A DNA stretch of 64,000 nucleotides from Ignavibacteriales bacterium. Lineage in GTDB: Bacteria; Bacteroidota; Ignavibacteria; Ignavibacteriales; Ignavibacteriaceae. The notes below the pieces were generated by a model. The model ran no database searches. It saw only the letters and a program-made list of their open reading frames with translations, and was not told the DNA's origin. The position numbers were made by a program, and so were the translations under genes. Each line of letters starts with the position of its first letter. The first letter of the stretch is position 1. Shown here in pieces: positions 4,607 to 16,736 of this stretch. The stretch spans positions 1,033,448-1,097,447 of the forward strand of contig CP054182.1 of NCBI GenBank assembly GCA_015709675.1. The letters run 5' to 3'.

Positions 4607-4643
4607 GTCATTTTATGGGGGAAAACCTCAAAATGTTGAAATT

Positions 4644-4671
4644 TTGACAATATCTATTTCTTTATTATATT
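4644..4671 (+). promoter_or_regulatory. Candidate promoter of the AbiEi/AbiEii operon
   Basis: TTGACA at 4644-4649, a 16-base spacer, then TATATT at 4666-4671, ending 25 bases before the AbiEi start codon. The region is strongly AT-rich. AbiEi proteins normally repress their own promoter, so an operator probably overlaps here, but no clear palindrome was seen. Confidence 0.45.
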
Positions 4672-4696
4672 AGAAACAGTATAAAAAAGAAATACA

Positions 4697-5317
4697 ATGA
4701 ATTTTGTAGAATTTTCCAGAGAGCTGAAGGATTTCCCGGCGTTTAGTCTCCGTGATGTTGCCAAGCTCAGTTCAAAGGTTTATCACCACCGGCTGATTGA
4801 GTGGCAGAAGAAGGGCTATATTACCCGGGTTGCTAATGGTATCTATCTTTTTAGTGATGCCGGGGTGGACGAGCTGTATCTCTATTATCTTTCCGGCAGG
4901 GTTTATGAGCCATCATATATTTCGCTGGAGTCCGCTTTTGCTTTTTATGGTTTTATCCCGGAATCTGTTTACCGTATAACAGCTGTTTCTACCAGAAAGA
5001 CCTGGAAGACCAGTTTTACTGATATTATATTTTCTTACAGAACCGTTGGCCGAAGCTGTTTCTTTGGTTATACTTTACTGAACTGGAAGAATACAGTTAT
5101 TAAAATGGCGGAACCGGAGAAGGCAATCATTGATTACTTTTATCTTAACCCCGGACTTAATTCACCGGAAAAAATATCAGGAATGAGATTTAATGCCGGC
5201 GAGATCATGGAGAAAACGGACTGGAATAAGATGAAAGAGTACCTGCAGCTTTTCCGGAATAAGGCACTGGAAAAGAGAATTGATATATTAGAGAAGGTCA
5301 TCAGAGAGCATGATTAA
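4697..5317 (+). CDS. abiEi: Type IV toxin-antitoxin system antitoxin, AbiEi family
   Basis: 206 residues. The N-terminal winged helix-turn-helix (about 15-60) includes the family-typical HRLIEWQKKGYITRVANGIY stretch, in which a DNA-binding helix precedes the GIYLF strand. It is followed by the AbiEi C-terminal domain with SLESAFAFYGFIPE and the AEPEKAIIDYFYLNP motif. AbiEi is the antitoxin and autorepressor of type IV toxin-antitoxin systems, and counteracts the AbiEii nucleotidyltransferase without binding it. The stop overlaps the start of the toxin gene by eight bases, so the two are translationally coupled. The pair is flanked by hairpin repeats and tRNA-Ser fragments, which suggests mobile ancestry. 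It may act in phage abortive infection, plasmid-style maintenance, or both. Confidence 0.9.
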   Translation: MNFVEFSRELKDFPAFSLRDVAKLSSKVYHHRLIEWQKKGYITRVANGIYLFSDAGVDELYLYYLSGRVYEPSYISLESAFAFYGFIPESVYRITAVSTRKTWKTSFTDIIFSYRTVGRSCFFGYTLLNWKNTVIKMAEPEKAIIDYFYLNPGLNSPEKISGMRFNAGEIMEKTDWNKMKEYLQLFRNKALEKRIDILEKVIREHD

Positions 5318-6083
5318 GATTTCAGACATTGAACGTTACTATCCGGAACATCAAAAACCTTTCAAGAGAAATATCCTGCGTGAATATCTGCAGTATAAAA
5401 TCCTGAGCATCATTTTTAACACTGAATATGCTTCACGCCTCTGGTTTATGGGGGGAACCTGTCTGCGAATCGTTTTCGGAACAAACCGGTTTTCAGAGGA
5501 TCTTGATTTTGATAATACGGATCTTACAGCAGATGAGTTTGATTCTCTATCAGAGATAATTGCACAAAAGCTGGAAGACGAAGGATATCAGGCAGAGATA
5601 AAAACCGTACACAGAGCTGCCTTCCGCTGTTATATAAAGATGCCGGGTTTATTATACGGAAGCGGTCTTTCCGGCTTCAGGGAAGAAAAGATACTGATTC
5701 AGCTTGACACAGAACCGCAGCAATATGATTACCATCCGGAATCCTTTTTACTTAATAAGTTTGACGTTTTCACCCGTATATATTACACCCCGGTAAATAT
5801 TCTCCTGGCTCAAAAATTATGGGCAGTGCTGAACAGAAAAACACCAAAAGGCAGGGATTACTATGATGTTGTGTTCCTGTTTGGCCTGACTCTGCCGGAT
5901 TATGGATATCTTGACAAAAAAGCAGGAATAACCAATCTGCAGGAACTCAAAAAGCGGCTTATGCAAAAACTTGAGGCAACAGACGCGAGCAGTCTGGTCA
6001 AAGATGTTGAACCATTTTTAATTCAGCCGGAAGACAGCAAGAGAATAGAACTGTTCCCTGAATTTGTAAAGGGACTCAGGTGA
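5310..6083 (+). CDS. abiEii: Type IV toxin, AbiEii/AbiGii nucleotidyltransferase family
   Basis: 257 residues. The catalytic nucleotidyltransferase signature is present: FMGGTCLRIVFG (motif I, GG near residue 48) and RFSEDLDFDN (the DxD-type metal site). Downstream are the family-typical LLAQKLWAVLNRKTPKGRDY and YDVVFLF segments (about 170-195), with the conserved K, R, D and YD. These toxins transfer nucleotides to RNA acceptors (tRNA for characterised relatives) and arrest growth. All expected motifs are visible, so the gene appears intact. It overlaps the antitoxin gene by eight bases and is probably only expressed with it. The acceptor of this particular toxin cannot be told from sequence, though the surrounding tRNA-Ser fragments are a notable coincidence. 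Confidence 0.9.
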   Translation: MIKISDIERYYPEHQKPFKRNILREYLQYKILSIIFNTEYASRLWFMGGTCLRIVFGTNRFSEDLDFDNTDLTADEFDSLSEIIAQKLEDEGYQAEIKTVHRAAFRCYIKMPGLLYGSGLSGFREEKILIQLDTEPQQYDYHPESFLLNKFDVFTRIYYTPVNILLAQKLWAVLNRKTPKGRDYYDVVFLFGLTLPDYGYLDKKAGITNLQELKKRLMQKLEATDASSLVKDVEPFLIQPEDSKRIELFPEFVKGLR

Positions 6084-6119
6084 ATAATTATCCAACGCAA
6101 ATGATTATTTGCTGAACGA

Positions 6120-6209: not shown

Positions 6210-6453
6210 GACCCCGGAAGGAAAACTATCCATGGCAATAAGAAACGAAAAAACCCGAACCGAAATTCGGTCTTAAACTCGCGGAGAGTCAGTCCCGACT
6301 CGTCGGGAGAACCCTGGAAGTCCGCCACGGCGGATAACACCCTCAAGTGATTTCAAGACTGCCGCACACATTAAAAAGAAAAAGCCCGACACAATGTATC
6401 GGGCTTAATTTTGACGGAGAGGCAGCACCAACTAGGGTCGGAAGAACCCCGGA
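6206..6453 (-). pseudogene. Degenerate tRNA-Ser 3'-half fragments (locus 1)
   Basis: Three pieces resemble the intact tRNA-Ser at 16616-16702. The piece at about 6206-6222 keeps only T-arm sequence. The piece at about 6281-6370 keeps the 3' acceptor, T-arm, variable arm and anticodon stem, with palindromes TCCCGACTCGTCGGGA in the T-loop and TCCGCCACGGCGGA in the variable arm. The piece at about 6414-6453 keeps acceptor and T-arm traces. Rho-independent-like hairpins sit between them (near 6248-6273 and 6379-6406). The D-arm and 5' acceptor strand are missing, so none can be a working tRNA. Confidence 0.7.
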
Positions 6454-6489
6454 AATTCATCGTGAATGCATGTGGAGATATCGGTTTGG

Positions 6490-6595
6490 AATAAGGGGCT
6501 GTCTCATAAGTCCTATTTTGAAAAAAATGTTGCGTTTTTTAATCAAAAACGAAACATCTTTCACACTTTTTTGACTAATGAGACAACCCCTTATT
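6490..6595. mobile_element. 106-bp full-length palindrome, MITE-like
   Basis: The terminal 23 bases (AATAAGGGGCTGTCTCATAA...) are inverted at the other end with two mismatches, and the complementarity continues inward, with small bulges, almost to the centre. The whole element can fold into one long hairpin. It has no coding capacity. TIRs with GGGGCTGTCTCAT are found on several DDE insertion sequence groups; a decayed transposase begins immediately to the right. No clear target-site duplication was identified. Confidence 0.7.
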
Positions 6596-6660
6596 AAACA
6601 GGTGATAGGAACTCGATCTTTTATTCAATAACCCACAGCTTCAGCTGGTGGTTAGTTAAA

Positions 6661-7654
6661 CAAGATCTTGCCATCCTGTTGTATGATGTCACTACGCTTT
6701 ATTTCGAGACATTCAAGGGAGATGAGCTGCGGTTACCGGGATTTTCTAAAGACAACAAGCCTCAAAAGCCCCAAATTGTTGTAGGATTGATAGTAACCAG
6801 AAGCGGGTTTCCCTTAAGTTATGAGATTTTCTCCGGAAACACATTCGAAGGGAAGACCATGTTAAAAGTACTGAAAAACTTCACTGAAATCAACTCTGTA
6901 AAACGTCCAATTGTCGTTGCCGATGCTGCAATGCTTGGCAATAGTAACATTCAATAATTGGTAAAGGAAGGATTTTCTTGTATCGTTGTGCACGACCTGG
7001 AAATATGTCGAGTGAGATGATTGAGTAAATTAACAGCAAGATACAGCGCCAGGACAGGAAGACTATGAGAGTGAAATCAGCAAAAGTGAATTAACTGTTC
7101 ATTACAGCCAGAAAAGATATCATAAGGACAAGCATGAGTTGGAGAAACAGATAGAGCGGGCAAATCAGTCAATCCAGAACTCCACATTAGCAAGAAATGT
7201 GAAGTTTGTAAAGCCGAAAAACAAGTGTAATGAATATATACTCAATGAACCGTTGGTGCAGAAGGCAAGAACATTGCTGGGGCTTAAGGGATACTATACG
7301 AATATTCCTAAAAAAGAACTGAGTGACCAACAAATCATTGAAAGATATCACGACTTAAGGCAAATCGAGAAATCATTCCGAATTGCCAAGAGTGATTTGG
7401 CTACTCGCCCGGTGTTCCACTTTAACAGCGACTCAGTAAAGTCACATATACTTATTTGCTTTACCGCGCTTATGATGAGCAAGTATCTGGAGATTTTAAC
7501 CGGGTATTCCATAAGAAGAATAACCGATGCATTGGGAGAAATCAAAGAGGTGATCCTGGAAGACAGTGTTACAGGTCAATCTTTTAGTGTAAAATCCAGC
7601 CCCAACCCGGATTCTGAGCCCATTTTCGAACTATTGAAAGAAAAATTGCCGTAA
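6661..7654 (+). pseudogene. Decayed IS1634-type (IS4-like DDE) transposase
   Basis: Two recognisable pieces lie in line. About 6676-6954 encodes LLYDVTTLYFET, GFSKDNKPQKPQIVVGL and a VVADAAML strand, the first catalytic segment of IS1634-group transposases. About 7139-7654 encodes the C-terminal part (ELSDQQIIERYHDLRQIEKSF, the YREK-like region). The N-terminal third is missing, an in-frame TAA stands at 6955, and the 6958-7138 stretch, though still alignable (EMIE, VHYSQKRYHKDKHELEK), is broken by a stop and frame changes. It cannot make an active enzyme. A matching right terminal repeat was not seen. Confidence 0.82.
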
Positions 7655-7805
7655 CAAATGGTATAAGTCAAAACTGTTATTTTTATTTCTTGTCTACAAG
7701 AAACAAAATAGATGCTATTAACTATCAGTAGAATTAAATCGAAGAATTTTCTGTGTGTCATGACCGACACTTCTAACACTTTCCTGATCAGTTTATTAAT
7801 TTTTC

Positions 7806-8447
7806 TCACCCCTTCATCACCTTTCCGGCAAGTTCAGCCATATTTTTGCTCTCATACTTAGTAAGCAGATTCCCACGGTATATATTCACTGTTTTTATGC
7901 TGATACCCAAATCCTCTGCCAGTTCCGCCGTTGTTTTTCCTGCAAGAACTCCTTTCAGAACCTCTCTTTCCCGGGCAGTTAAAAACACATCACCGTAAAA
8001 CTCCCGGCTTACGGTCACTTTCCCTCGGTAGCTTTGCAGCAATCTCTCCAATGCTTCTTCATCATATCCTTCAACGGCAAATCGGGCACCTTTTTCAATC
8101 CGGGCCACAATACGGTTTAAGTTACTCACCGCAGCCACTTTTTTCACATATCCGTTCGCTCCTGCCTGGTAGGATTTATAGATATATTCCTCTTCCTGAT
8201 GGAACGTCAGGACAACTATTTTGCCGTCAAATCCCTTTTGGCGCAGCTCCCGTATCACAACCAATCCATGCTTCTTGGGCAGGGATAAATCCATAAATAC
8301 ATAATCCGGGTTCTGCTCATCTGTTATTCGCAGTGCTTCTTCGCCTGTTTCGCACTCAAGAAACTCGGTGAAAAGTTCATTCTCCCGCAAGGTGGTTAAT
8401 ATCCCCGCACGTACAATTGCATGATCATCTGCAATTAATATCTTCAT
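7806..8447 (-). CDS. NarL/LuxR-family response regulator
   Basis: 213 residues. The receiver domain (1-120) has the acidic pair D7-D8, the phospho-acceptor D53 in YVFMDLSLP, the conserved T in VVLTFH and the K in GYVKK. The C-terminal LuxR-type HTH (about 150-210) reads LTAREREVLKGVLAGKTTAE followed by LGISIKTVNIYRGNLLTKY. All catalytic residues are present. The ATG overlaps the kinase stop by four bases (ATGA), so the two are coupled. It is the last gene of a four-gene operon. The regulator may bind the TAGG-N8-CCTA palindrome found upstream of its own operon and of the exported protease cluster at 15.3 kb; that link is inference from sequence identity of the two sites. Confidence 0.93.
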   Translation of the reverse strand: MKILIADDHAIVRAGILTTLRENELFTEFLECETGEEALRITDEQNPDYVFMDLSLPKKHGLVVIRELRQKGFDGKIVVLTFHQEEEYIYKSYQAGANGYVKKVAAVSNLNRIVARIEKGARFAVEGYDEEALERLLQSYRGKVTVSREFYGDVFLTAREREVLKGVLAGKTTAELAEDLGISIKTVNIYRGNLLTKYESKNMAELAGKVMKG

Positions 8448-9589
8448 GTTGATGCCTCATTTTTCTCCTTTGTTTCTGCAGGATACTCTATCAATATTTC
8501 TGTCCCGGACAACTTCCCTGTTACCACTTCAAAACGCCCCTCTCGTTGTCTTATCTGATGTTCGATATTAAACAAGCCCCATCCGCTCCCCTCCTTGCTG
8601 TTACGGTGTACCTCCGTCATTCCCTTCCCGTCATCTGATACAATGATATTTACCATGCCTTCATGACAGATAAGCTGCACACCAAAGTGCTTTGCATTTG
8701 AATATTTTACTATGTTATTGGTCAATTCCTGTATTATCCGGTATATACGCATCTCTTCATCAGCCGTCAGATAATCGTCAGGTATTTGGCTTACAAACTC
8801 CCCTTCTAATTCTGCTGTTTTAGCAACCTGGTTTACCAAAGATTGTAACGCTGTATTCAGTCCCAGTTCCCCCAGCAGTTTGGGCTTCAACTCATTAACC
8901 ATTTCATAGATTTCTTCAATACCCTGATCTGCTTCCCGTAATATCTCTGTTAATTCTCCGTCATACATTCCTGCTGTCTTCTTCTGCAGTCTTTCAGCCA
9001 ACATTCTGATACTCGTCAACGTCTGTCCGTGTCCGTCATGCAGTTCATTTGCCAGTCTCCTCCTTTCCCGTTCAATACTCTGCTGGAGCCGTTCATTAAA
9101 TTTTTGTATCTCCCTTTCTAAGGCCGTCCGGTCACTGATATCCACCAAACTAATATATGCAAACTTGTGTTCCTGCACACCTTGCAGCTTTATTATATAT
9201 ACCGTATTTCCCTGTTTATATTCACACTGCAGTTCTGCCCCCCTCTGTATGACCTGTTCAAAACTCTCTTCACCTAAAATCTGCAATATCAACCCTCCAA
9301 AGGAACTTCCTTTGGCCGCCTCGATACTTTGCACGATCCTCTTCCCTTCCCTGTTTTGGTAAACTATCAGGCCTGCATTATTCAACAATATAATAGGGAT
9401 CGGCGACATTTCATTAAACAACTTACCGTATTTTTCCTTTTCTTCCTTAATCTGTTTTTTTTCTGCCGTATGACGCAAATTATTCGGCACCAGTCCGTAT
9501 TTTGTCATAATCACAAAACTTCCGAATATCATAAGGACCATCACAGCAGAAAATACGATCGGGTTTAGTAGACTGAAATTATCGGTCAA
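8444..9589 (-). CDS. Membrane-anchored PAS sensor histidine kinase (NarL-type, HisKA_3)
   Basis: One N-terminal transmembrane helix (about residues 11-28), a PAS-like domain (about 54-153), then the HisKA_3 dimerisation domain with the phospho-acceptor in ANELHDGHGQTLTSIR (H184 counted from the TTG start) and a HATPase domain ending with DDGKGM and GSGWGLFNI. The start was set at TTG 9589. It has GAGGA upstream, and its TTGA overlaps the stop of the preceding gene by four bases. A longer frame reaching 9655 would overlap that gene by 70 bases and lacks a good ribosome site. No extracytoplasmic sensor domain is present, so the signal is probably cytoplasmic or comes from the two membrane or exported proteins encoded upstream in the operon. 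Confidence 0.9.
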   Translation of the reverse strand: MTDNFSLLNPIVFSAVMVLMIFGSFVIMTKYGLVPNNLRHTAEKKQIKEEKEKYGKLFNEMSPIPIILLNNAGLIVYQNREGKRIVQSIEAAKGSSFGGLILQILGEESFEQVIQRGAELQCEYKQGNTVYIIKLQGVQEHKFAYISLVDISDRTALEREIQKFNERLQQSIERERRRLANELHDGHGQTLTSIRMLAERLQKKTAGMYDGELTEILREADQGIEEIYEMVNELKPKLLGELGLNTALQSLVNQVAKTAELEGEFVSQIPDDYLTADEEMRIYRIIQELTNNIVKYSNAKHFGVQLICHEGMVNIIVSDDGKGMTEVHRNSKEGSGWGLFNIEHQIRQREGRFEVVTGKLSGTEILIEYPAETKEKNEAST

Positions 9590-10167
9590 TGGCGTAAATC
9601 CTCTTCTCGTGTTATCCGTAGTGTTAATTTCGGTTCCCCTGGACGGTAGTAGCAAAAGTAAAGATATAACAGTACATTAGTCCAGCCAGATATCAGAAAA
9701 TACTCCTTAAAAATTGGCACGCCTGCAAATCCTACAATAATTCTTGTTATTGTATTAAGTTCAGAGAACACAAATACCATATAGAAAAGATTTACAGCAC
9801 CGGTCTTTAATAAGTCCATAAAAGAATCTTTAAGCACAAGTATTGTTATCAACGAGTGCAATCCGGCGATTATGATTAATTGCAACTTCAAATCTGTCGG
9901 AGTAATAAAATACACCAAAACCATTAGCGCAACTATCACATAGTAATGTCTTTTTTCTCGCTTCTCAAAAAGCAAAAAATAAAGCACTGGCACACCAAGC
10001 AATATATACCAGTGGTTCCCTCGTATTCCGAGTCCAAATAAAAAAATATGCGCAATAATCTCACCTAACGCAAAAAGAAAAAATATCGGTCCGTATTTTT
10101 CACTTCTTTGTCTGTAAGCTGTAAAAATGCTTAGTATTAAAAATACATTAGGCAATAAATTGTCCAA
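9586..10167 (-). CDS. Multi-pass membrane protein of unknown family, in kinase operon
   Basis: 193 residues with about six predicted hydrophobic helices spread over the whole length (for example NVFLILSIFTAY, WYILLGVPVLYFLLF, YYVIVALMVLVYFIT). The C-terminus is short and charged. I do not recognise the family. The position directly before the kinase, with a four-base stop/start overlap, suggests it works with that kinase, either as a membrane sensor or as an anchor, since the kinase itself has only one membrane helix. This is inference from context. The start ATG at 10167 lies 11 bases after the stop of the upstream gene. Confidence 0.75.
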   Translation of the reverse strand: MDNLLPNVFLILSIFTAYRQRSEKYGPIFFLFALGEIIAHIFLFGLGIRGNHWYILLGVPVLYFLLFEKREKRHYYVIVALMVLVYFITPTDLKLQLIIIAGLHSLITILVLKDSFMDLLKTGAVNLFYMVFVFSELNTITRIIVGFAGVPIFKEYFLISGWTNVLLYLYFCYYRPGEPKLTLRITREEDLRH

Positions 10168-10178
10168 TTATTTTCCTG

Positions 10179-10649
10179 CTATTCCAAACAATATGGTGGA
10201 CACGGCGTTCCCACCTCTAGTATAAACTCCCCGCAACGCAAGGTAAATGCCTTTTCTCGCTGTTCTGCATAAACAATTTCTTCCCCGCCTCTCAAAAGCA
10301 ATTCCTCTATCCTTTCCCTGCTGTAAATCATCATTACCTTTTCATTTTGTAATTCAAATCCTTCCGGATATACAATTTTTCTCTCCTTATCGGCTACCAC
10401 CACCACTCCCCCCGCTATCCCGAACATTAAATATGGTCTGCTTTTTGCCTCATTCAGCAGAATTCTGCTTTCCATAGTGGCCCTCATGGTAACAGCCCCA
10501 AACTTCGCCTCCCCTTCGCTTCTGCTGAAAATCTCCCCGATTATTTGTCCATTTATTTCTCCCGCAAATAAGAGTAGAGCAAACAACACTGTGGTTAGTC
10601 TGATTCCTTTTGCTGCTAACCTTTCCCGTAAACAAGTACACCAATCCAT
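10179..10649 (-). CDS. Small exported or membrane-anchored protein, unknown
   Basis: 156 residues. A positively charged N-terminus (RERLAAKGIR) precedes a hydrophobic signal-like segment (LTTVLFALLLFAGEINGQ, ending near residue 35). The rest is a soluble beta-rich-looking region with a hydrophobic strand (YLMFGIAGGVVVVADKER) and a Cys-containing C-terminus (TPCPPYCLE). I do not recognise the family. It is the first gene of the operon with the membrane protein, kinase and response regulator; GGCGG lies just upstream of the ATG. It may be a periplasmic partner of the sensor, but nothing in the sequence proves it. The promoter and a candidate operator lie about 110-155 bases upstream. Confidence 0.68.
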   Translation of the reverse strand: MDWCTCLRERLAAKGIRLTTVLFALLLFAGEINGQIIGEIFSRSEGEAKFGAVTMRATMESRILLNEAKSRPYLMFGIAGGVVVVADKERKIVYPEGFELQNEKVMMIYSRERIEELLLRGGEEIVYAEQREKAFTLRCGEFILEVGTPCPPYCLE

Positions 10650-10758
10650 TTTTCCGCCTTTTTTTTATATTTATTGAATAAAAAGCCCTTTTACTTCTCA
10701 TTTCCCGGTTCCCCGGTTTTTTTTAATTCTACACAAAAAAAAACAACTGCTTTAGCCT

Positions 10759-10805
10759 ATATTACTACTTATCCCCCACTTCGTCAATAGGAGTAAATAC
10801 CTAGT
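10759..10805 (-). promoter_or_regulatory. Promoter plus palindromic operator of the two-component operon
   Basis: Read on the minus strand, TTGACG (10787-10782), a 17-base spacer and TAATAT (10764-10759) make a good sigma-70-like promoter, with a leader of about 100 bases to the first gene. Directly overlapping and upstream of the -35 box is TAGGTATTTACTCCTA, an imperfect inverted repeat with TAGG/CCTA ends. A 23-base block (10783-10805) containing it is repeated base for base at 15281-15303. The position fits an activator that contacts RNA polymerase at the -35 region. Confidence 0.6.
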
Positions 10806-10839
10806 TATTCTCTCTTTTGTTATTTTATGACCTTAAAAT

Positions 10840-10871
10840 GAGGGGCCGGCATAACTTTACACCGGCCTCTC
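10840..10871 (-). terminator. Hairpin downstream of the 10891-11778 gene
   Basis: Ten-base arms (GAGGGGCCGG at 10840-10849 and CCGGCCTCTC at 10862-10871) with one mismatch. On the minus strand the stem is followed by ATTTTAAGG. It lies 20 bases after the stop codon of the last T9SS gene of the cluster. Confidence 0.6.
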
Positions 10872-10890
10872 ATAGCTGGTTTCCCGTATT

Positions 10891-11778
10891 TTACTTCAAC
10901 AATGTCATTTTTCTGGTCAGGGTCATCCCTCTGCCATAGCTCAACTTGTACAAATAAACCCCGCTGGCTAAATGAGCACCGTCAAATATCACCCCATGGC
11001 TCCCTTGCTCATATTGCCCCTTTGCTAAAACTGCTACTCTGTTTCCGAGTATATCATACACCCCAAGCTCAATTTCACTGCTTTCAGGCAGGCGGAATCG
11101 TATCTCACTGCTCGGATTAAACGGATTCGGGTAATTCTGCTCAAGTCGGTAATCGGATTCCATCACCTCATCACGTACACTCACCCATGGGTAAAATGTC
11201 GTATCTCCGTACACTACCCCATTAATTACACAGCCCATTTGCCGGTCAGTTTCAAAATCAGCTGTATAGGAGAGTATCCCAAATTTTAAACTGTATAAAG
11301 CAAATAATTCATATGGATTTCCGTCTAAACTAATTCTAAGTCTATACAATGTGTCGGGCTGTCCATAAACTAGGTCTAAAAGTATTTCAGTAATCTTATA
11401 ACGCCACATGTAAATCGTTTTTTGATTAACCCATTCGTCACCTATTTGGGGATTTTCTTTCCAATGTATCCATTCATAATTTGGTGCAATTACGCTGCTG
11501 TCAACTCTTTCAACGTGATATCCATCGGGACGGACCCGTGTATAGTATTTATATACATGATGTATACTTCGACCTTCAAGTATAGTATAATCAAGTGAAT
11601 CAATTATAATTTTACCAGGTAAATATTCGAATCGTGCTTTCTCATTTCCATTCACAACGTCGGTCACCCACACATTACCCACGCCGTATGGCATCTGTAT
11701 TCTCGGTGTAGATTGTGCCTCAGCTCTTGCAATCAGAACTACTGCTGCAATCGTGATTAATATAAGATTCTTCTTCAC
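10891..11778 (-). CDS. T9SS-exported protein, paralogue A
   Basis: 295 residues. A signal peptide ends near residue 21 (VVLIARAEAQ). The central region of about 190 residues (GVGNVWVTDVVNG ... NYEWIHWKENPQIGDEW ... FALYSLKFGILSYTADFET) is of unknown function. It ends with a T9SS type A sorting domain (NYPNPFNPSSEIRF ... GVYLYKLSYGRGM, KMTLLK). The body is closely related to the neighbour at 11875-12762, but the sorting domain is a different subtype, closer to that of the trypsin-like protein at 39428. Secretion across the outer membrane through the T9SS is expected from the tail. The function of the body is unknown; it has no obvious catalytic motif. Confidence 0.82.
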   Translation of the reverse strand: MKKNLILITIAAVVLIARAEAQSTPRIQMPYGVGNVWVTDVVNGNEKARFEYLPGKIIIDSLDYTILEGRSIHHVYKYYTRVRPDGYHVERVDSSVIAPNYEWIHWKENPQIGDEWVNQKTIYMWRYKITEILLDLVYGQPDTLYRLRISLDGNPYELFALYSLKFGILSYTADFETDRQMGCVINGVVYGDTTFYPWVSVRDEVMESDYRLEQNYPNPFNPSSEIRFRLPESSEIELGVYDILGNRVAVLAKGQYEQGSHGVIFDGAHLASGVYLYKLSYGRGMTLTRKMTLLK

Positions 11779-11809
11779 ATCACATTCCTTTATTTTTCTT
11801 CAAACAAAT

Positions 11810-11865
11810 GGGGCTTCCTAAATATAACTTTTTTATTGCATGTATTTTCATATATAGAAAGCCCC
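11810..11865. repeat. Intergenic hairpin between paralogues A and B
   Basis: The arms GGGGCTTCCTAAATATA and (right arm read in reverse complement) GGGGCTTTCTATATATG pair around an AT-rich loop. A homologous hairpin occupies 12795-12850 between paralogue B and the metalloprotease gene, which shows that spacer and flanking tail were duplicated together. Confidence 0.65.
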
Positions 11866-11874
11866 GTGCATTTC

Positions 11875-12762
11875 CTATTTCAATAGAGTCAGCTTTTTAG
11901 AAAAAACTTTTCCATTCGTTTTCATCACATAAAAATATACCCCGCTGCTTAAACTGCTTGCATCCAGTTGTACCTCATAGTTTCCCGGTTCCCGGTATGT
12001 CCGCTCAATGGTCATAACTTCTTTCCCCAATATATCAAATAATCCAATACTTACTTCCCCCTTGCTTTCTATGCCGTATTGAATTGTGGTGCTCGGATTA
12101 AACGGATTTGGGTAATTTTGCTCAAGCCGGTAATCGGATTCCATCACCTCATCATGAACACTCACCCATGGGTAAAATGTCGTATCTCCATAAACTACTC
12201 CATTAATTACGCAGCCCAACTGAGACGTTGTTTCAAATTCCGCTGTATAGGATAGTATTCCAAATTTTAAACTGTATAAAGCAAATAATTCATATGGATT
12301 TCCATCTAAACTTATTCTTAGTCCATACAATGTATCAGGTTGTCCATAAATCGCTGCTGTAAAAATGTCAATAATCTGATATCTCCAAGTTTGGTGCAAC
12401 CATTGGTTAATCCATTGATCGCCTATCTGAGGATTTTCTTTCCAGTGTATCCATTCATAGTTTGGGGCAATCACATTGCTGTCCACACGTTCAACATGGT
12501 ATCCGTCGGGTCGGATACGTGCATATTTCAGGGACATGTACCCGTAGCTTCTGCGTTCCAAAACCCAATACGAAATTGAATCGATAATGAAGTTATCATC
12601 AATGTATTCAAAGCGATTTTTATCATTTCCGTCCACTATATCATCAATCCACACATTTCCTATACCGTATGGCATTTGAATTCTGGGTAAGGTTGGTTGT
12701 GCTACAGATTTTTCACTAAGTAATATGAATGTAATGGTAATTAACAAAATACTCTTCTTCAA
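11875..12762 (-). CDS. T9SS-exported protein, paralogue B
   Basis: 295 residues, the same length as paralogue A at 10891 and clearly homologous over the body (YHVERVDSNVIAPNYEWIHW, YGQPDTLYGLRISLDGNPYE). The signal peptide ends near residue 21. The sorting domain (NYPNPFNPSTTIQYGIESKG ... GVYFYVMKTNGKV, KLTLLK) is nearly identical, in protein and DNA, to that of the metalloprotease encoded next to it and unlike that of paralogue A. The gene therefore looks like a chimera: body from one lineage, tail from the other. A hairpin lies on each side. The function of the body is unknown. Confidence 0.82.
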   Translation of the reverse strand: MKKSILLITITFILLSEKSVAQPTLPRIQMPYGIGNVWIDDIVDGNDKNRFEYIDDNFIIDSISYWVLERRSYGYMSLKYARIRPDGYHVERVDSNVIAPNYEWIHWKENPQIGDQWINQWLHQTWRYQIIDIFTAAIYGQPDTLYGLRISLDGNPYELFALYSLKFGILSYTAEFETTSQLGCVINGVVYGDTTFYPWVSVHDEVMESDYRLEQNYPNPFNPSTTIQYGIESKGEVSIGLFDILGKEVMTIERTYREPGNYEVQLDASSLSSGVYFYVMKTNGKVFSKKLTLLK

Positions 12763-12794
12763 ATTGACTTCCTTAATTATTTTTCCAACAAATC

Positions 12795-12850
12795 AGGGCT
12801 TCCTAATGATAGCTTTTTTACTATTTGCACCTTTATATATAGAAAGCCCT
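12795..12850. repeat. Intergenic hairpin between paralogue B and the metalloprotease gene
   Basis: AGGGCTTCCTAATGATA pairs with the downstream TATATATAGAAAGCCCT. It has the same layout and similar sequence as the hairpin at 11810-11865. Confidence 0.65.
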
Positions 12851-12859
12851 GTGTAATTC

Positions 12860-14989
12860 TTATTTCAATATCGTCAGCTTTTTGGATAAAACTATTCCAT
12901 TAGTTTTCATCACGTAAAAATATACCCCGCTGCTTAAACTGCTTGCATCCAGTTGTACCTCATAGTTTCCCGGCTCCCGGTATGTCCGCTCAATGGTCAT
13001 AACTTCTTTCCCCAATATATCAAATAATCCAATACTCACTTCCCCCTTGCTTTCTATGCCGTATTGAATTGTGGTACTCGGATTAAACGGATTAGGGTAA
13101 TTTTGACTTAAATAATAAGTTTTCGGCACGCTGCTGGTTTCATTCTGTCCGTCCTTTTGTATGGTTAAATCAAAATAAATCCAGTCATACTGAGAATGCA
13201 TAGATTCCAAATTCGTGCTGTCAACCGCAGATATTTTATAGAACAATTTGTAATCCTCAACTTGCCCTGTAATATACGGATTAGGGTCAATCCACGAAGT
13301 CACAGGTGTATCAGGATGAGTATAAGCACTAATCGTTGCTATATGATTCCATGTTGTCGGTTCCGCTCCTGTTGTATATTTGCTGTAAATCTTATAACTC
13401 CCCCCTGCTTTAACATCCGGCTCTATATTTGCCGTCCACGCTAATTTGGGGCTTGTTCCAAATTTTTTAACTTGTAAAAACTGTGGCTTCGCTGGTGGTA
13501 GCGCCAATACAGAGGCATACGTATTAAATGTTTTTAAAGTTATATTTTCCCCGCTTTGGCTGTAAACCTGCATGGCCATCGTATATAAGGAGTCAATATA
13601 AGTGCTTGGTGCACTCCAGGGGCTGAATATCTCAGTATAATTATCATTCCACGCCTGCCCCTCTATCCCGAACACATTTCTCCGCAATGAGTCCGTTTTT
13701 ACCAAAGGTATGGTATCATGCCATTTCTCCCACCAGCTGCCGTTATAAAATACATTTTGCGGATGCCGGTCGCTCTTTCCGGTATTTCGGTTAACAGCAA
13801 CACGGCCGCTTAAAGGCATAGTGCTGGGCCAGCCGCTTGGCATACTTATCGTTCCGTTTTGTACCCAGTCCCAGGCGCCGTTTCCCGTTTTCAATTCAAT
13901 ATTTGGAGGCACACCGTTATTTCCGTATGCTGTGGCGCTGTATCCGGATATTTCCCAAACGTATATACCCTTCCCTTTCGTTGCGGTAGTATCATACCCT
14001 CCTGCAAGTTCATCCCCACGGGCAATAAAATCATAAATACTTTTCCTCTGATGGTTTTCTACGAGATAAAATTTTGTTCCGCCGTATCCCGCAGGTATTT
14101 TTAATACATCACCATCCTCCACATAGTCTCCCAACGTTGTTGTAAAATTATTCTGATCAGCTATGGTATAAGAAATGTAACCCAACTGATAACGCTCCCA
14201 TGCTCCTAACACATAGGTGCTCGTGTAGTAGTATCCGGTCATCAGTCCGCCGGCGCTTGAGTGATATCCCAACAAGTAGTGTCCTAATTCATGATTCAGC
14301 AACCCTAAAAAGCCAAAATGATTAATGTTGCTGCCGTCCCGCACCACAATACCGGACCCTAATCGGTTAAAAATGCCTCCTACACTAATCGAAGATGATA
14401 TCGCTTTATCTGAACCTAGTCCCAAACCAGCTATTCCTCCTGAAAAACCCCAATTATCTTTTTCTGCACCTCTGAATACAACTATCATCATATCAATATA
14501 ACCATCCCCTGCTTCCTCCTTAAACTCCCAGCTTGTTCCGTTCCATGCCCAGTTATCATATTTGGCGTAATTAATTTTATTGTATAATGAATCAATGGTA
14601 ACCGAAACAGCAGCGGAATAACTACCGGACCTGTATGAAAAAGGTATGGTAACCTGTGCCGGATACACTTCACCGATGATATGATAGTTATTATAAGACA
14701 TTTCTGACCAATAGTCAGACATCGTCCCGCTTCTGTACATGGTATGGACCGTACTGTCGGCAAAATTCCGGGCATACGTAGGCAGCTGGCCTAATGTCCA
14801 GTCACCAGCAGAGGTCACCGTATCATTCTCAAATCCTACATACACAAACAATATCCTGAAAAATTCACCCGGTGCTGTCATTGCGGGTTTTAAAAATCCA
14901 CCGGTTTGATTCTCAATAGACTCCTCTAAGCCGGCTGGTTCATCAGTACAGACATACCTTTCGTCATCTGCCCGTGGGCCATTGTACAA
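12860..14989 (-). CDS. M6-like zinc metalloprotease, T9SS-exported (frame-shifted at its N-terminus)
   Basis: About 709 residues from a TTG-like entry point. The metzincin-like zinc site LNHELGHYLLGYHSS (HExxH at about 233-237) lies in a domain resembling the M6 / immune inhibitor A group (FFRILFVYVGFENDTV, MSDYWSEMSYN at the front). An FN3-like region (about 510-610, PPAKPQFLQVKKFG ... YKLFYKISAVDS) follows, then a T9SS sorting domain (NYPNPFNPSTTIQYGIESKG). The frame itself has no signal peptide. The signal peptide lies immediately upstream in another frame (14926-15066), separated by a -1 shift in the overlap. As read, the product would stay in the cytoplasm, so the gene is disrupted, recoded, or carries a sequence error. 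Confidence 0.83.
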   Translation of the reverse strand: MYNGPRADDERYVCTDEPAGLEESIENQTGGFLKPAMTAPGEFFRILFVYVGFENDTVTSAGDWTLGQLPTYARNFADSTVHTMYRSGTMSDYWSEMSYNNYHIIGEVYPAQVTIPFSYRSGSYSAAVSVTIDSLYNKINYAKYDNWAWNGTSWEFKEEAGDGYIDMMIVVFRGAEKDNWGFSGGIAGLGLGSDKAISSSISVGGIFNRLGSGIVVRDGSNINHFGFLGLLNHELGHYLLGYHSSAGGLMTGYYYTSTYVLGAWERYQLGYISYTIADQNNFTTTLGDYVEDGDVLKIPAGYGGTKFYLVENHQRKSIYDFIARGDELAGGYDTTATKGKGIYVWEISGYSATAYGNNGVPPNIELKTGNGAWDWVQNGTISMPSGWPSTMPLSGRVAVNRNTGKSDRHPQNVFYNGSWWEKWHDTIPLVKTDSLRRNVFGIEGQAWNDNYTEIFSPWSAPSTYIDSLYTMAMQVYSQSGENITLKTFNTYASVLALPPAKPQFLQVKKFGTSPKLAWTANIEPDVKAGGSYKIYSKYTTGAEPTTWNHIATISAYTHPDTPVTSWIDPNPYITGQVEDYKLFYKISAVDSTNLESMHSQYDWIYFDLTIQKDGQNETSSVPKTYYLSQNYPNPFNPSTTIQYGIESKGEVSIGLFDILGKEVMTIERTYREPGNYEVQLDASSLSSGVYFYVMKTNGIVLSKKLTILK

Positions 14990-15066
14990 AATAAGAACAT
15001 GAAAAAGAACACTAATTTCCTGAATTTTGTAATGCCCTCAGGCCGGCATCTAAATAAGTTACTCAT
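14926..15066 (-). CDS. Signal-peptide leader of the metalloprotease, out of frame with the body
   Basis: The ATG at 15066 has a strong AAGGAG seven to eight bases upstream. It encodes MSNLFRCRPEGITKFRK, a hydrophobic core (LVFFFMFLFC) and a cleavage-like AHGQ, then 13 residues to a TAG at 14926-14928. The protease body opens at 14989 in the -1 frame, so the two frames overlap by about 60 bases. The full gene would run 15066-12860, whose length is not a multiple of three. The most likely single cause is a one-base indel near the run ACGAAAGG. Confidence 0.7.
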   Translation of the reverse strand: MSNLFRCRPEGITKFRKLVFFFMFLFCTMAHGQMTKGMSVLMNQPA

Positions 15067-15256
15067 AATGAGCTCCTTTATATTTAGTTTAAACGCGGTA
15101 GAATGATTATATTTCGGTGATGGTTGAAGCATTGTTAACGCATCCTTCTTCCATTTCCCTTGCGGCCTTTCTCTACCGGGAAAGGCCAATTTATTTCTTA
15201 TCTATGTTTCTTCTCATCCCCCATATCCCATCCTCAGACATTTTTTTTGTTTGTGC

Positions 15257-15303
15257 AAGTAAACTCTTATTTTTTTCAAAGTCAATAGGAGTAAATACCT
15301 AGT
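15257..15303 (-). promoter_or_regulatory. Second copy of the TAGG-N8-CCTA operator with a -35 box
   Basis: The 23 bases at 15281-15303 are identical to 10783-10805. On the minus strand they end in TTGACT (-35), and 17 bases on is TTACTT (15262-15257), a weaker -10. The site lies about 190 bases upstream of the metalloprotease leader ATG at 15066. Flanking sequence differs from the first copy, so only the operator and -35 element are conserved. Confidence 0.55.
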
Positions 15304-15326
15304 CCCGGATTTTAACATAAACTCAC

Positions 15327-15623
15327 ATGGCTGATTTTCCACCGTTAATTTTAACATTTTTTACATTGTTTAAGGGCTGCTATGTACAATTTATACTCAA
15401 AACTTTTTGTGGATATATGACCAATACTGATTTCAGGGTTTGGCAGAATGCTCTTGCACAGGAATGCTCAGAATTTCTCAAAACCGCTTATACTGCAAAA
15501 ATGGGTGAAGTAAAAATGGTCACAGAAATGGCAGGTCTCCTATCCAATAAATATTACAAAAATATTCGCCTTAGTGAAAAAAAATTCAAGGTAAAGCTTC
15601 ATCCGTGCAAAATAATCATTTAG
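15327..15623 (+). CDS. Hypothetical small ORF, doubtful
   Basis: 98 codons from an ATG at 15327, or 69 from an internal ATG at about 15414 (MTNTDFRVWQNALAQE). The product is Lys-rich at the C-terminus and has no recognisable domain. No convincing ribosome site precedes it. It overlaps the next ORF by 19 bases in another frame, which could mean two genes or one broken one. The region is AT-rich, lies next to degenerate repeats, and looks like an eroding stretch. Confidence 0.3.
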   Translation: MADFPPLILTFFTLFKGCYVQFILKTFCGYMTNTDFRVWQNALAQECSEFLKTAYTAKMGEVKMVTEMAGLLSNKYYKNIRLSEKKFKVKLHPCKIII

Positions 15624-16156
15624 GTCAGGATACCCCATCAGAACTGGCAGATCTTGTTATTATTTCGCTGATCACGCAAAACAGAAAAATTCTCCTAAAA
15701 AAAACCGCATTAATCCAATGCAAGAAAGAAACAGCAAAAGAATCTTGTGCAATTCAACAAAACCAGCTCAATCTGCTCCACAATTTCCCTTCCTTCATTG
15801 GTGTTCGCGGGTTGGAAAAACAAACTTTTAAAAATCCCGTTAACTGTTTCAATATTACAAGCAGTCTTTGCCAGTATTGTTCGCTTAAAGAGCCCGGGGA
15901 TCTCCTTCTTACCACATTTCGCTCCGTAGCTCTAAACCAAATTAATAACAGAGTATCCGCCAATGATACGTTTTCATCTGATCCGAAGCAAATTCATTCT
16001 CCCTATTCAATGAGTTTTCCCCTGGCCTTTATTGATCACCCTGATTGGGGAATGTTGTTATATGAATTTAATGGTCATTTAGACGCGGACGGTTTTTCCC
16101 GAAGGGACTACGACTTAGTAGGACCGCCGAAGCCAGATCAGAATTGTAAAGTATAA
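15605..16156 (+). CDS. Hypothetical ORF reading into tRNA-derived repeats, doubtful
   Basis: 183 codons with no recognised domain. It is rich in Asn, Lys, Gln and Leu, with scattered Cys (SSLCQYCSLKEPGD). The last 25 or so codons (about 16086-16135) are read through a degenerate tRNA-Ser anticodon-arm unit with its inserted palindrome, so the natural end of any original protein has been lost or replaced. It may be a remnant of an element that once sat at the tRNA. Confidence 0.28.
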   Translation: MQNNHLGQDTPSELADLVIISLITQNRKILLKKTALIQCKKETAKESCAIQQNQLNLLHNFPSFIGVRGLEKQTFKNPVNCFNITSSLCQYCSLKEPGDLLLTTFRSVALNQINNRVSANDTFSSDPKQIHSPYSMSFPLAFIDHPDWGMLLYEFNGHLDADGFSRRDYDLVGPPKPDQNCKV

Positions 16157-16199
16157 AAAGTCCTAAAACGAAAAAGGCCTGATTATCATCAGACCTTTC
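16086..16199 (-). pseudogene. tRNA-Ser-derived fragment (anticodon arm only) and a hairpin terminator
   Basis: About 16086-16135 reads GGACGGTTTTTCCCGAAGGG ... GGACCGCCG. The anticodon-stem halves (ACGGT/ACCG on the minus strand) are split by a palindrome-bearing insert like those in the units to the right. The hairpin AGGCCTGA..TCAGACCT at about 16171-16199 is the terminator of the neighbouring unit. Confidence 0.5.
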
Positions 16200-16206
16200 A
16201 TTCTTC

Positions 16207-16317
16207 GCGGAGAGTCAGTCCCGACTCGTCGGGAGAACCCCGGAAGTCCGAGACGGCGGAATATATCCTTAACGGTTTTTCCCGAAGGGACTCCTACAGA
16301 TCAAGACCGCCGCACAC
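16207..16317 (-). pseudogene. tRNA-Ser-derived unit 1 with three inserted palindromes
   Basis: It aligns to the 3' three-fifths of the intact tRNA-Ser: acceptor 3' strand, T-arm, variable arm, anticodon arm. TCCCGACTCGTCGGGA replaces part of the T-loop, TCCGAGACGGCGGA sits in the variable arm, and a 22-base insert beginning TCCCGAAGGGACTCC splits the anticodon. D-arm and 5' acceptor are absent. The unit is followed on the minus strand by the hairpin at 16171-16199. Confidence 0.75.
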
Positions 16318-16327
16318 CTTTAAAATG

Positions 16328-16470
16328 AAAAAGGCCTGACTTTCATCAGACCTCTTTTGCGGAGAGTCGGTCCCGACTCGTCGGGTGAACCCCGGAAGTC
16401 CGCCCGCGGCGGATTACATCCTTAATGGTTTTCCAGTAGGGACTCCTACAGAGCAAGACCGCCACACACC
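16328..16470 (-). pseudogene. tRNA-Ser-derived unit 2 with its own terminator
   Basis: tRNA-like part 16359-16470: the same truncation and the same three insertion points as unit 1, with TCCCGACTCGTCGGGT in the T-loop, TCCGCCCGCGGCGGA in the variable arm and CCAGTAGGGACTCCTACAGAG in the anticodon loop (start of the insert partly decayed). A hairpin AGGCCTGACTTTCATCAGACCT with flanking A and T runs (16328-16358) follows on the minus strand. Confidence 0.75.
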
Positions 16471-16479
16471 TTTAAAATG

Positions 16480-16557
16480 AAAAAGGCCTGACTTTCATCA
16501 GACCTCTTTTGCGGAGAGTCAGTCCCGACTTGTCGGGAGAACCCCGGAAGGACAATT
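16480..16557 (-). pseudogene. tRNA-Ser-derived unit 3 (T-arm half only) with its own terminator
   Basis: 16511-16557 retains the acceptor 3' strand and the T-arm with TCCCGACTTGTCGGGA in the loop, then diverges after GGAAGGAC. The AGGCCTGA..TCAGACCT hairpin at 16480-16510 is the same as that of unit 2. Confidence 0.7.
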
Positions 16558-16579
16558 ATACATATCAATTTAAAATGAT

Positions 16580-16606
16580 AAAGCCCGATCATTCAATCGG
16601 GCTTTT
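16580..16606 (-). terminator. Terminator of the intact tRNA-Ser
   Basis: AAGCCCGATCATTCAATCGGGCTTTT: an eight-base GC-rich stem with flanking A and T runs, starting ten bases after the tRNA 3' end on the minus strand. Confidence 0.75.
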
Positions 16607-16615
16607 CAAAGGTTG

Positions 16616-16702
16616 CGGAGAGTCAGGGATTCGAACCCCGGAAGGACTTACATCCTTAACGGTTTTCAAGACCGCCGCATTCAACCACTCTGCCAACTCT
16701 CC
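16616..16702 (-). tRNA. tRNA-Ser (anticodon UGA)
   Basis: The 87-base cloverleaf on the minus strand has acceptor GGAGAGT paired with ACTCTCC and discriminator G. The D-arm is present, the anticodon stem/loop is CGGT-CTTGAAA-ACCG (anticodon TGA), and the class II variable arm has an AAGGA/TCCTT stem. The T-arm is CGGGG-TTCGAAT-CCCTG. The CCA end is not encoded. It is the only complete tRNA in the window and the parent of the degenerate units beside it. Confidence 0.95.
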
Positions 16703-16710
16703 GTATTCAA

Positions 16711-16736
16711 TCCCGACTTGTCGGGACCAACTCTCC
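16711..16736. repeat. Palindrome and 10-bp duplicate at the 5' side of tRNA-Ser
   Basis: TCCCGACTTGTCGGGA (16711-16726) is followed by CCAACTCTCC (16727-16736), which repeats the tRNA 5'-end sequence at 16693-16702. The palindrome is therefore flanked by copies of the same tRNA decamer. Confidence 0.6.

Follow-up and report, generated by a model that had tools for sequence, protein, structure and literature searches.

A tRNA-Ser(UGA) gene within a 64,000-nucleotide (nt) stretch of an Ignavibacteriales bacterium chromosome (contig CP054182.1, positions 1,033,448 to 1,097,447; the whole stretch is called the window) is accompanied by a tandem array of dead tRNA-Ser copies in which loops and arms are exchanged for short palindromic hairpins. 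These units are probably relics, without their GIY-YIG nuclease gene, of a homing-type selfish element on tRNA genes which would be isotype-specific and chromosomal, and closest to SegB of phage T6. An original prediction, made from the window's letters alone, had described degenerate units beside the intact tRNA-Ser(UGA) and proposed that they were either a new tRNA-derived small-RNA family or scars of repeated insertion. ARAGORN, Rfam and sequence comparison confirmed three tandem units plus an anticodon-arm scrap. The scar proposal lies nearer to the evidence; insertion-type scars are supported, although through arm replacement and tandem copying instead of plain insertion.

Read in the tRNA sense, the order is tRNA, hairpin, three tandem units each with a copy of a T-tailed hairpin, and the anticodon-arm scrap; unit starts are spaced by 152 bp. 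The main replacement of tRNA loops and arms is the short palindrome TCCCGACNNGTCGGGA, referred to here as PAL. Within unit 1 (tRNA strand) the T-arm bases GAATCC are swapped for PAL (TCCCGACGAGTCGGGA), the variable-arm GTC is swapped for a TCCGCC..GGA-type palindrome, and the anticodon is split by a 22-nt insert, ATCTGTAGGAGTCCCTTCGGGA; unit 2 carries variants of all three. The predicted placement of three palindromes at shared places in these two units was thus present, but they are 94% identical over 122 nt, so the shared placement represents tandem duplication, and independent insertions in the two copies were ruled out. The palindromes do lie in loops and arms as claimed, but PALs replace tRNA bases there and are not merely added. 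The claim that only the 3' part of the tRNA is kept was correct for the 3' units, but it overlooked a 5' remnant upstream of the tRNA, reading GGAGAGTTGG-PAL-TTGAATAC with the D-loop bases CAGAGTGG replaced, and two more units about 10 kb off. At up to two mismatches PAL occurs 5 times in the window vs 0.06 expected from shuffles, and TCCGCCNNNGGCGGA has one exact match and, at two mismatches, 6 matches vs 1.6 expected (6 being reached in 1/100 shuffles).

We examined if the units have the attributes of small RNAs. Each was said to have its own rho-independent-like hairpin; a T-tailed hairpin copy does follow each, but the terminator scan accepted 2 of the 4 hairpins (the tRNA's own and that of unit 1), with 1.4 expected in shuffles and hence no excess. 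A promoter scan, which covers sigma-70-type sites only, gave none within the window units on their strand, and a candidate upstream of the tRNA. Folding of the two full units, a check put forward with the original prediction, was not significantly better than for shuffles (z -1.66 and -0.46), the tRNA itself giving -2.78. Recurrence of the units beside many tRNA genes, with hairpins retained, speaks for a small-RNA family; the missing folding excess, the variation of the kept tRNA part and palindrome sequence from array to array, and the GIY-YIG genes that occupy the sister-species array (below) speak against it, and we regard such a family as extremely improbable.

The less-decayed arrays of relatives contain a small stand-alone GIY-YIG gene. 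The complete element there comprises an intact tRNA, a terminator, the GIY-YIG gene, and a displaced 3' tRNA part with one arm or loop swapped for a palindromic hairpin. The order can also be mirrored, with a displaced 5' part and then GIY-YIG preceding the intact tRNA. A sister species of the same genus (G001) has a tRNA-Ser(UGA) array with matching remnants and two GIY-YIG genes; its adjacent block is 85% identical to window 4642-6085 over 1444 bp, and the array segments are 73-100% identical. The order in Cyclobacterium lianum is a 5' remnant with PAL, tRNA-Asp, terminator, GIY-YIG, and a PAL-bearing remnant, and the same order was seen with tRNA-Asn in BMS3Bbin03. In genome G002, five repeats of 315 bp come after tRNA-Asp, each made up of GIY-YIG, remnant and T-tailed hairpin, with open reading frames, and genome G026 has three 317-bp repeats of a tRNA-Pro 5' remnant plus GIY-YIG, followed by the intact tRNA-Pro; the compact repeat units contain just a GIY-YIG gene.

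The array proteins are about 80-90 amino acids long and UPF0213/SLX1-like; for the one array protein searched, the closest solved relatives were UPF0213 and the DNA endonuclease SLX1. All ten proteins tested (nine from tRNA arrays, and one copy from the window's own genome lying among repeats) were above the Pfam GIY-YIG cut-off, and a consensus of 89 proteins shows conserved Y, Y, G, R, H and E positions. Six PF01541 matches were found in the window's genome: long proteins account for two, the Asn and Met arrays hold two, one is a decayed copy about 3 kb from the Asn array, and one is among repeats of repetitive extragenic palindromic (REP) type. Among the matches listed, 31 genomes had from 1 to 20 PF01541 matches each, UvrC-like ones included.

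The association of GIY-YIG genes with tRNA genes was assessed in several ways. Forty GIY-YIG loci of relatives were hand-picked among the matches listed with their context unseen (long UvrC-like proteins and the known G002 tRNA-Asp array were excluded); a same-strand tRNA lay within 800 nt at 22 of the 40, where about 1% is expected by chance, and two further loci adjoin tRNA-Leu or tmRNA remnants. Of 39 tRNA loci in the window's genome, the Asn and Met arrays alone have a GIY-YIG gene. For 80 named PAL loci, GIY-YIG was present within 600 nt in 11/22 with tRNA context vs 0/58 without (Fisher p 7e-8), nine loci being hand-assigned to tRNA context; an earlier table, skewed by duplicate removal, gave 7/13 vs 4/67. 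When GIY-YIG proteins with a tRNA within 700 nt were considered, 49/53 showed a remnant matching that tRNA at the gene's far side (chain score of 12 or more); the median cognate score was 32.5 vs 10.5 in 1666 non-cognate tests, and the cognate tRNA scored best in 45/53.

Besides tRNA genes, one locus (L312, 836-1560) has a tmRNA gene, then a GIY-YIG gene, then a 3' remnant of tmRNA whose T-loop carries an insert. Where no intact tRNA is near, GIY-YIG genes (L302, L304, L308, L318, L332 and L266, from relatives and the window's own genome) are often bordered on both sides by repeated, REP-like hairpin DNA. Repeats of 12 bp or longer, some of them tRNA or tmRNA remnants, flanked 22/35 such genes vs 1/35 for shuffles; GIY-YIG may have a role for those REP-like repeats resembling that of the REP-associated tyrosine transposases (RAYT).

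Within the window's genome, exact TCCCGACNNGTCGGGA was found at 29 sites, and the reversed control at 0. All except one, which is in a REP-type repeat, are in partial copies of 5S rRNA and of seven tRNA genes (Ser-UGA, Ser-CGA, Lys-UUU, Asn-GUU, Thr-UGU, Val-UAC and Pro-UGG), and dead copies with related or other inserts are also present beside Ser-GGA, two Met-CAU genes and Asp-GUC. In total, 11/43 tRNA genes are flanked by dead copies that hold PAL or another insert, counted as ten of 42 listed tRNA genes plus Ser-UGA, the 43rd entry of the listing being a Thr-derived copy. Three PAL-bearing partial 5S rRNA copies lie downstream of an rRNA operon (G000 C1:3411647-3411904, L030), and no GIY-YIG match was found in that stretch.

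PAL was present in 28 of the 59 genomes searched, the window's own included. Of 30 PAL loci examined in relatives, 15 were in tRNA context and the others were in dispersed DNA, with one in RNase P RNA. The tRNA-plus-PAL pattern was found in 11/395 genomes of the phylum, nine of these being in one other family; all nine have PAL in tRNA-Asn copies with the junction CTGTTA-PAL, and match named Chlorobiaceae records. A scan for PAL plus GGTTC, which gives contexts and not rates, had an ARAGORN tRNA within 1 kb for 34/97 among the matches listed; those near tRNA came from Chlorobiaceae, Melioribacteraceae, Cyclobacterium lianum, Labilibaculum manganireducens, Neomarinimicrobiota and others. The same arrangement was seen in further Ignavibacteria and in Chlorobia, Cyclobacterium, Labilibaculum and Neomarinimicrobiota. 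The units do not occur only here, and the statement in the original prediction that their pattern is not random decay is borne out by recurrence of the same replacements at many tRNA genes in many genomes.

In a junction table of 121 rows (near-identical copies are included and the rows are not independent), REPLACEMENTS track tRNA structure. In Pro-CGG and Lys-CUU, as in several of the Val, Asp and Arg copies, PAL stands in place of the anticodon stem-loop in its full 17 nt; many Asn copies, other Arg copies and one Thr copy (L170) have it in place of the 3' strand of the anticodon stem plus about four bases; and in yet others it takes the place of parts of the D- or T-arm. An intact tRNA-Ser(CGA) of Neomarinimicrobiota has PAL as its variable arm. 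One relative has a full-length RNase P RNA (L115, 969-1391, minus strand; 258.7 bits) with a PAL hairpin near the 3' end. A perfect stem of at least 5 bp was found in 27/39 distinct inserts vs 7% of shuffles, and several inserts without such a stem are 22-nt double mini-hairpins resembling the anticodon insert of the window.

A passive origin has to be weighed here, namely that tandem tRNA duplicates decay, that a REP-like palindrome moved by a Y1/RAYT-type transposase inserts into them, and that GIY-YIG settles secondarily. The half of the examined PAL loci in REP-type or dispersed DNA, the PALs of RNase P RNA and of the intact tRNA-Ser, and the four Y1_Tnp genes encoded by the genome are all consistent with it. 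Nevertheless, PAL has no fixed head sequence in the contexts examined, 28/29 exact PALs of the window's genome are in tRNA or 5S remnants, and the boundaries recur at the same tRNA positions across phyla, where palindromes of other sequence also take these places; we consider a passive origin unlikely. Y1/RAYT as the mover of PAL was rejected: the palindromes listed for the surroundings of the four Y1_Tnp genes do not include PAL, and one of these genes (L001, RAYT-type) is flanked by arrays of its own, different palindromes (ACCCGCATCGCGGGT and relatives).

The GIY-YIG lineages follow tRNA isotype. On a tree of 89 GIY-YIG domains (79 columns), the nearest-tRNA label changes 25 times vs a shuffled mean of 49.9, and 0/200 shuffles were as low; near-copies add to this label signal. 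The main Asn lineage (support 86) joins members from Chlorobia, Ignavibacteria and BMS3Bbin03, and Ignavibacteria and Neomarinimicrobiota come together in the main Pro group (support 82); there are two further Asn lineages, and the Val, Cys and Met labels are scattered or nearly so. Within each of the Asp, Asn and Pro lineages, a segment typical of that lineage was lost recurrently from the dead copies, with differing hairpins in its place. For the Asp members of one lineage, 5/5 remnants are without exactly CGAGTTCG (8 nt), with four different hairpins in its place; Cyclobacterium Asp remnants, from another nuclease lineage, and Pro remnants are missing anticodon-arm bases, and main-lineage Asn remnants are missing the 3' side of the anticodon arm. 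These missing segments fit a sequence-specific nuclease whose displaced copies would have to lose the target.

We propose the following course of events. The nuclease would cut the cognate tRNA gene of an element-free chromosome, and repair off an element-bearing template would copy the element in, leaving one functional tRNA that is partly the recipient's own sequence, with the dead half displaced. With an arm exchanged for a hairpin, the dead copy would no longer offer the cut site. Further rounds of cutting and recombination would then multiply the unit of nuclease, dead tRNA and terminator in tandem, and later loss of the nuclease genes would result in solo arrays such as that of the window, which we infer to have lost its own.

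A number of observations weigh against this proposal. No GIY-YIG trace was detected in the window by tblastn with 89 GIY-YIG proteins (E up to 0.01), and an intact GIY-YIG gene is present in just two arrays of the window's genome. Half of the PAL loci with tRNA context (11/22) were without GIY-YIG within 600 nt, several of these being near the end of the available stretch, and half of the PAL loci examined in relatives fall outside tRNA context altogether. Four of 53 loci gave no remnant by the far-side method, the remnant being elsewhere in some; moreover, a score of 14, attained by 48/53 cognate tests, was also reached by 311/1666 non-cognate tests, and a weak single remnant match is therefore no proof. 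The tree has 79 columns only and its deep forks are weak, and Ser and some other isotypes do not have one constant missing segment. The intact tRNA retains the segment missing from the dead copy (e.g., tRNA-Asp of G002), and since it does so, escape of the element-bearing chromosome from cutting is unexplained; simple immunity, furthermore, needs no hairpin as the replacement. Whereas the array anatomy, its recurrence, the GIY-YIG association, isotype tracking and segment loss come directly from the sequences, cutting, homing and removal of the cut site by hairpins are inferred. As to spread into element-free alleles, what is observed is a patchy presence. The commonness of TCCCGA...TCGGGA is left unaccounted for by homing. 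No plasmid or phage vehicle was found with one array protein as query, where the best 12 matches of each search were either to the tRNA part or weak ones to nucleases, at about 35-42% identity.

Could the GIY-YIG protein cut the cognate tRNA itself, with the hairpin-swapped dead copies serving as RNA decoys or antitoxins? Type III toxin-antitoxin systems use tandem repeats as RNA antitoxins. Such a model accounts for a hairpin that is kept while its sequence changes, for the isotype fidelity of lineages, and for the repeated units. To the eye, the chlorobial 5' copies have promoter-like sequence on one side and the tRNA on the other and are for this reason probably transcribed, and a passage of one paper (PMC1564403) describes a GIY-YIG domain fused to a TrmH-type RNA methyltransferase, for which a role in RNA metabolism was suggested. 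Opposed to this are the lack of a sigma-70-type promoter on the unit strand within the window units; the T-tailed hairpins that separate downstream units here and in G002, though the terminator scan passes only half of them in the window; folding no better than shuffles; solved relatives which include a DNA endonuclease; and the frequent position between repeated DNA of those GIY-YIG clade members that have no tRNA neighbors. We judge an RNA target to be quite unlikely, and homing at the DNA level to be the better reading.

The features of the window array are collected in the table below. The array is in two parts, with about 9.6 kb of DNA between them (6463-16085); there is no such gap in the sister species, and extra DNA probably entered the window array for that reason. 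The intervening DNA encodes a response regulator, a histidine kinase and a Por-sorted protein (Pfam), and by eye there are ends of inverted, insertion sequence (IS) type near 6.49-6.60 kb; long direct repeats at 11109-13105 (up to 300 nt, 89%) derive from neighboring similar genes. An AbiEii-type nucleotidyltransferase gene (Pfam; 4697-6083) and a small upstream gene adjoin the tRNA-Ser array and are syntenic in the sister species. Some relatives of AbiEii-type toxins act on tRNA.

Features of the tRNA-Ser(UGA) array (window coordinates)
Feature	Position	Strand	Remarks
Intact tRNA-Ser(UGA), host gene	16615..16702	-	ARAGORN; Rfam RF00005, 57.8 bits
5' tRNA-Ser remnant upstream of tRNA	16703..16736	-	PAL (16711-16726) in place of D-loop bases CAGAGTGG; like structure at G001 locus
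Terminator-like hairpin of intact tRNA	16580..16606	-	accepted by terminator scan
Unit 3, 3' remnant (variable-arm end, T-arm, acceptor 3' strand)	16512..16553	-	T-arm PAL 16523-16538
T-tailed hairpin after unit 3	16480..16506	-	not accepted by terminator scan
Unit 2, 3' remnant	16360..16466	-	anticodon insert 16433-16453; variable-arm palindrome 16399-16413; T-arm PAL 16371-16386 (one mismatch)
T-tailed hairpin after unit 2	16328..16356	-	not accepted by terminator scan; GIY-YIG gene after corresponding G001 hairpin
Unit 1, 3' remnant	16208..16314	-	anticodon insert 16280-16301; variable-arm palindrome 16247-16260; T-arm PAL 16219-16234
Terminator-like hairpin after unit 1	16170..16199	-	accepted by terminator scan
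Anticodon-arm remnant	16086..16130	-	insert ends GTCCCTTCGGGA
Separate tRNA-Ser(UGA) remnant	6281..6370	-	T-arm PAL 6293-6308; variable-arm palindrome 6321-6334; array part split off by ~9.6 kb
Second, more decayed remnant of split-off array	6411..6462	-	

Splitting of the array by extra DNA would also suit leftover attachment sites of tRNA-targeting integrative elements, such as tyrosine-integrase islands or phages. A paper on tRNA gene fragments (PMC9897764) treats 3' tRNA fragments as attR scars and names integrative elements as a widely occurring source; the term "GIY-YIG" occurs in it 0 times. Locus L024, where a 3' tRNA-Ser(CGA) fragment is found with small genes in between, is of this appearance. 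PAL-bearing 5' fragments, arm replacement at helix boundaries and GIY-YIG tandem units are not features of such scars, however, and no Pfam integrase match was present among ten window proteins scanned; attachment sites are a very unlikely source of the array. The arrays do resemble integrative elements in that the host tRNA is functional and a displaced tRNA fragment is left, and differ from them in a unit of down to about 315 bp with a GIY-YIG gene, in having both 5' and 3' fragments, in the hairpin-swapped arms and in the tandem arrangement.

Chromosomal GIY-YIG elements tied to dead, hairpin-swapped tRNA copies had no account in the open-licence PMC literature, as covered by best-ranked titles and abstract openings with subscription papers outside the scope. 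At somewhat less than an even chance, we suggest that they form a distinct class of cellular mobile element, in which isotype-specific GIY-YIG nucleases live as parasites on the tRNA genes of chromosomes in several bacterial phyla, with tmRNA, 5S rRNA and REP hairpins as probable further structured loci; the host gene would be kept working, and the dead half displaced and protected by swapping the targeted stem-loop for a different hairpin. If true, solo dead arrays would be fossils of this class, both a common palindrome and a type of tRNA gene fragment that keeps recurring would be explained, many small stand-alone GIY-YIG genes of the clade would gain a role, and related enzymes may move some REP-like hairpins. 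The recent phage SegB finding would hold for bacterial chromosomes too, a nuclease's target arm would be predictable from the arm absent in dead copies, and such nucleases would be ready-made cutters of tRNA-arm sequences.

Several known systems share part of this description. REP copies flank a Y1 transposase gene and carry a fixed short head; the present arrays are similar in linking multi-copy short palindromes to a small nuclease gene, whereas the nuclease is GIY-YIG and not Y1, PAL replaces arms of tRNA copies, and the PAL flanks vary with no fixed head. Rickettsia palindromic elements and the like are palindromes inserted in genes and stable RNAs, and palindromes inside RNA genes are likewise seen here; in contrast, PAL takes the place of existing arms of dead tRNA copies and has a link to nuclease genes. 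SegB of phage T6 is a GIY-YIG homing endonuclease that cuts inside tRNA genes, with recombination leading to tandem amplification of tRNA and nuclease, and the SegB paper reports no isotype preference (PMC13096335); an overview of T4 covers free-standing GIY-YIG homing endonucleases of T-even phages (PMC2988022). As in these phages, a small nuclease gene lies beside tRNA genes, and the SegB motif RAWTSGAAC appears to resemble the T-loop read on the other strand. Unlike SegB, the present elements are in bacterial chromosomes, their lineages tend to keep one tRNA isotype, they go together with dead tRNA halves whose arms are swapped for hairpins, and the single protein searched is UPF0213/SLX1-like. 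We group the element as a variant with the free-standing GIY-YIG homing elements, and there is a real chance that it is a class of its own.

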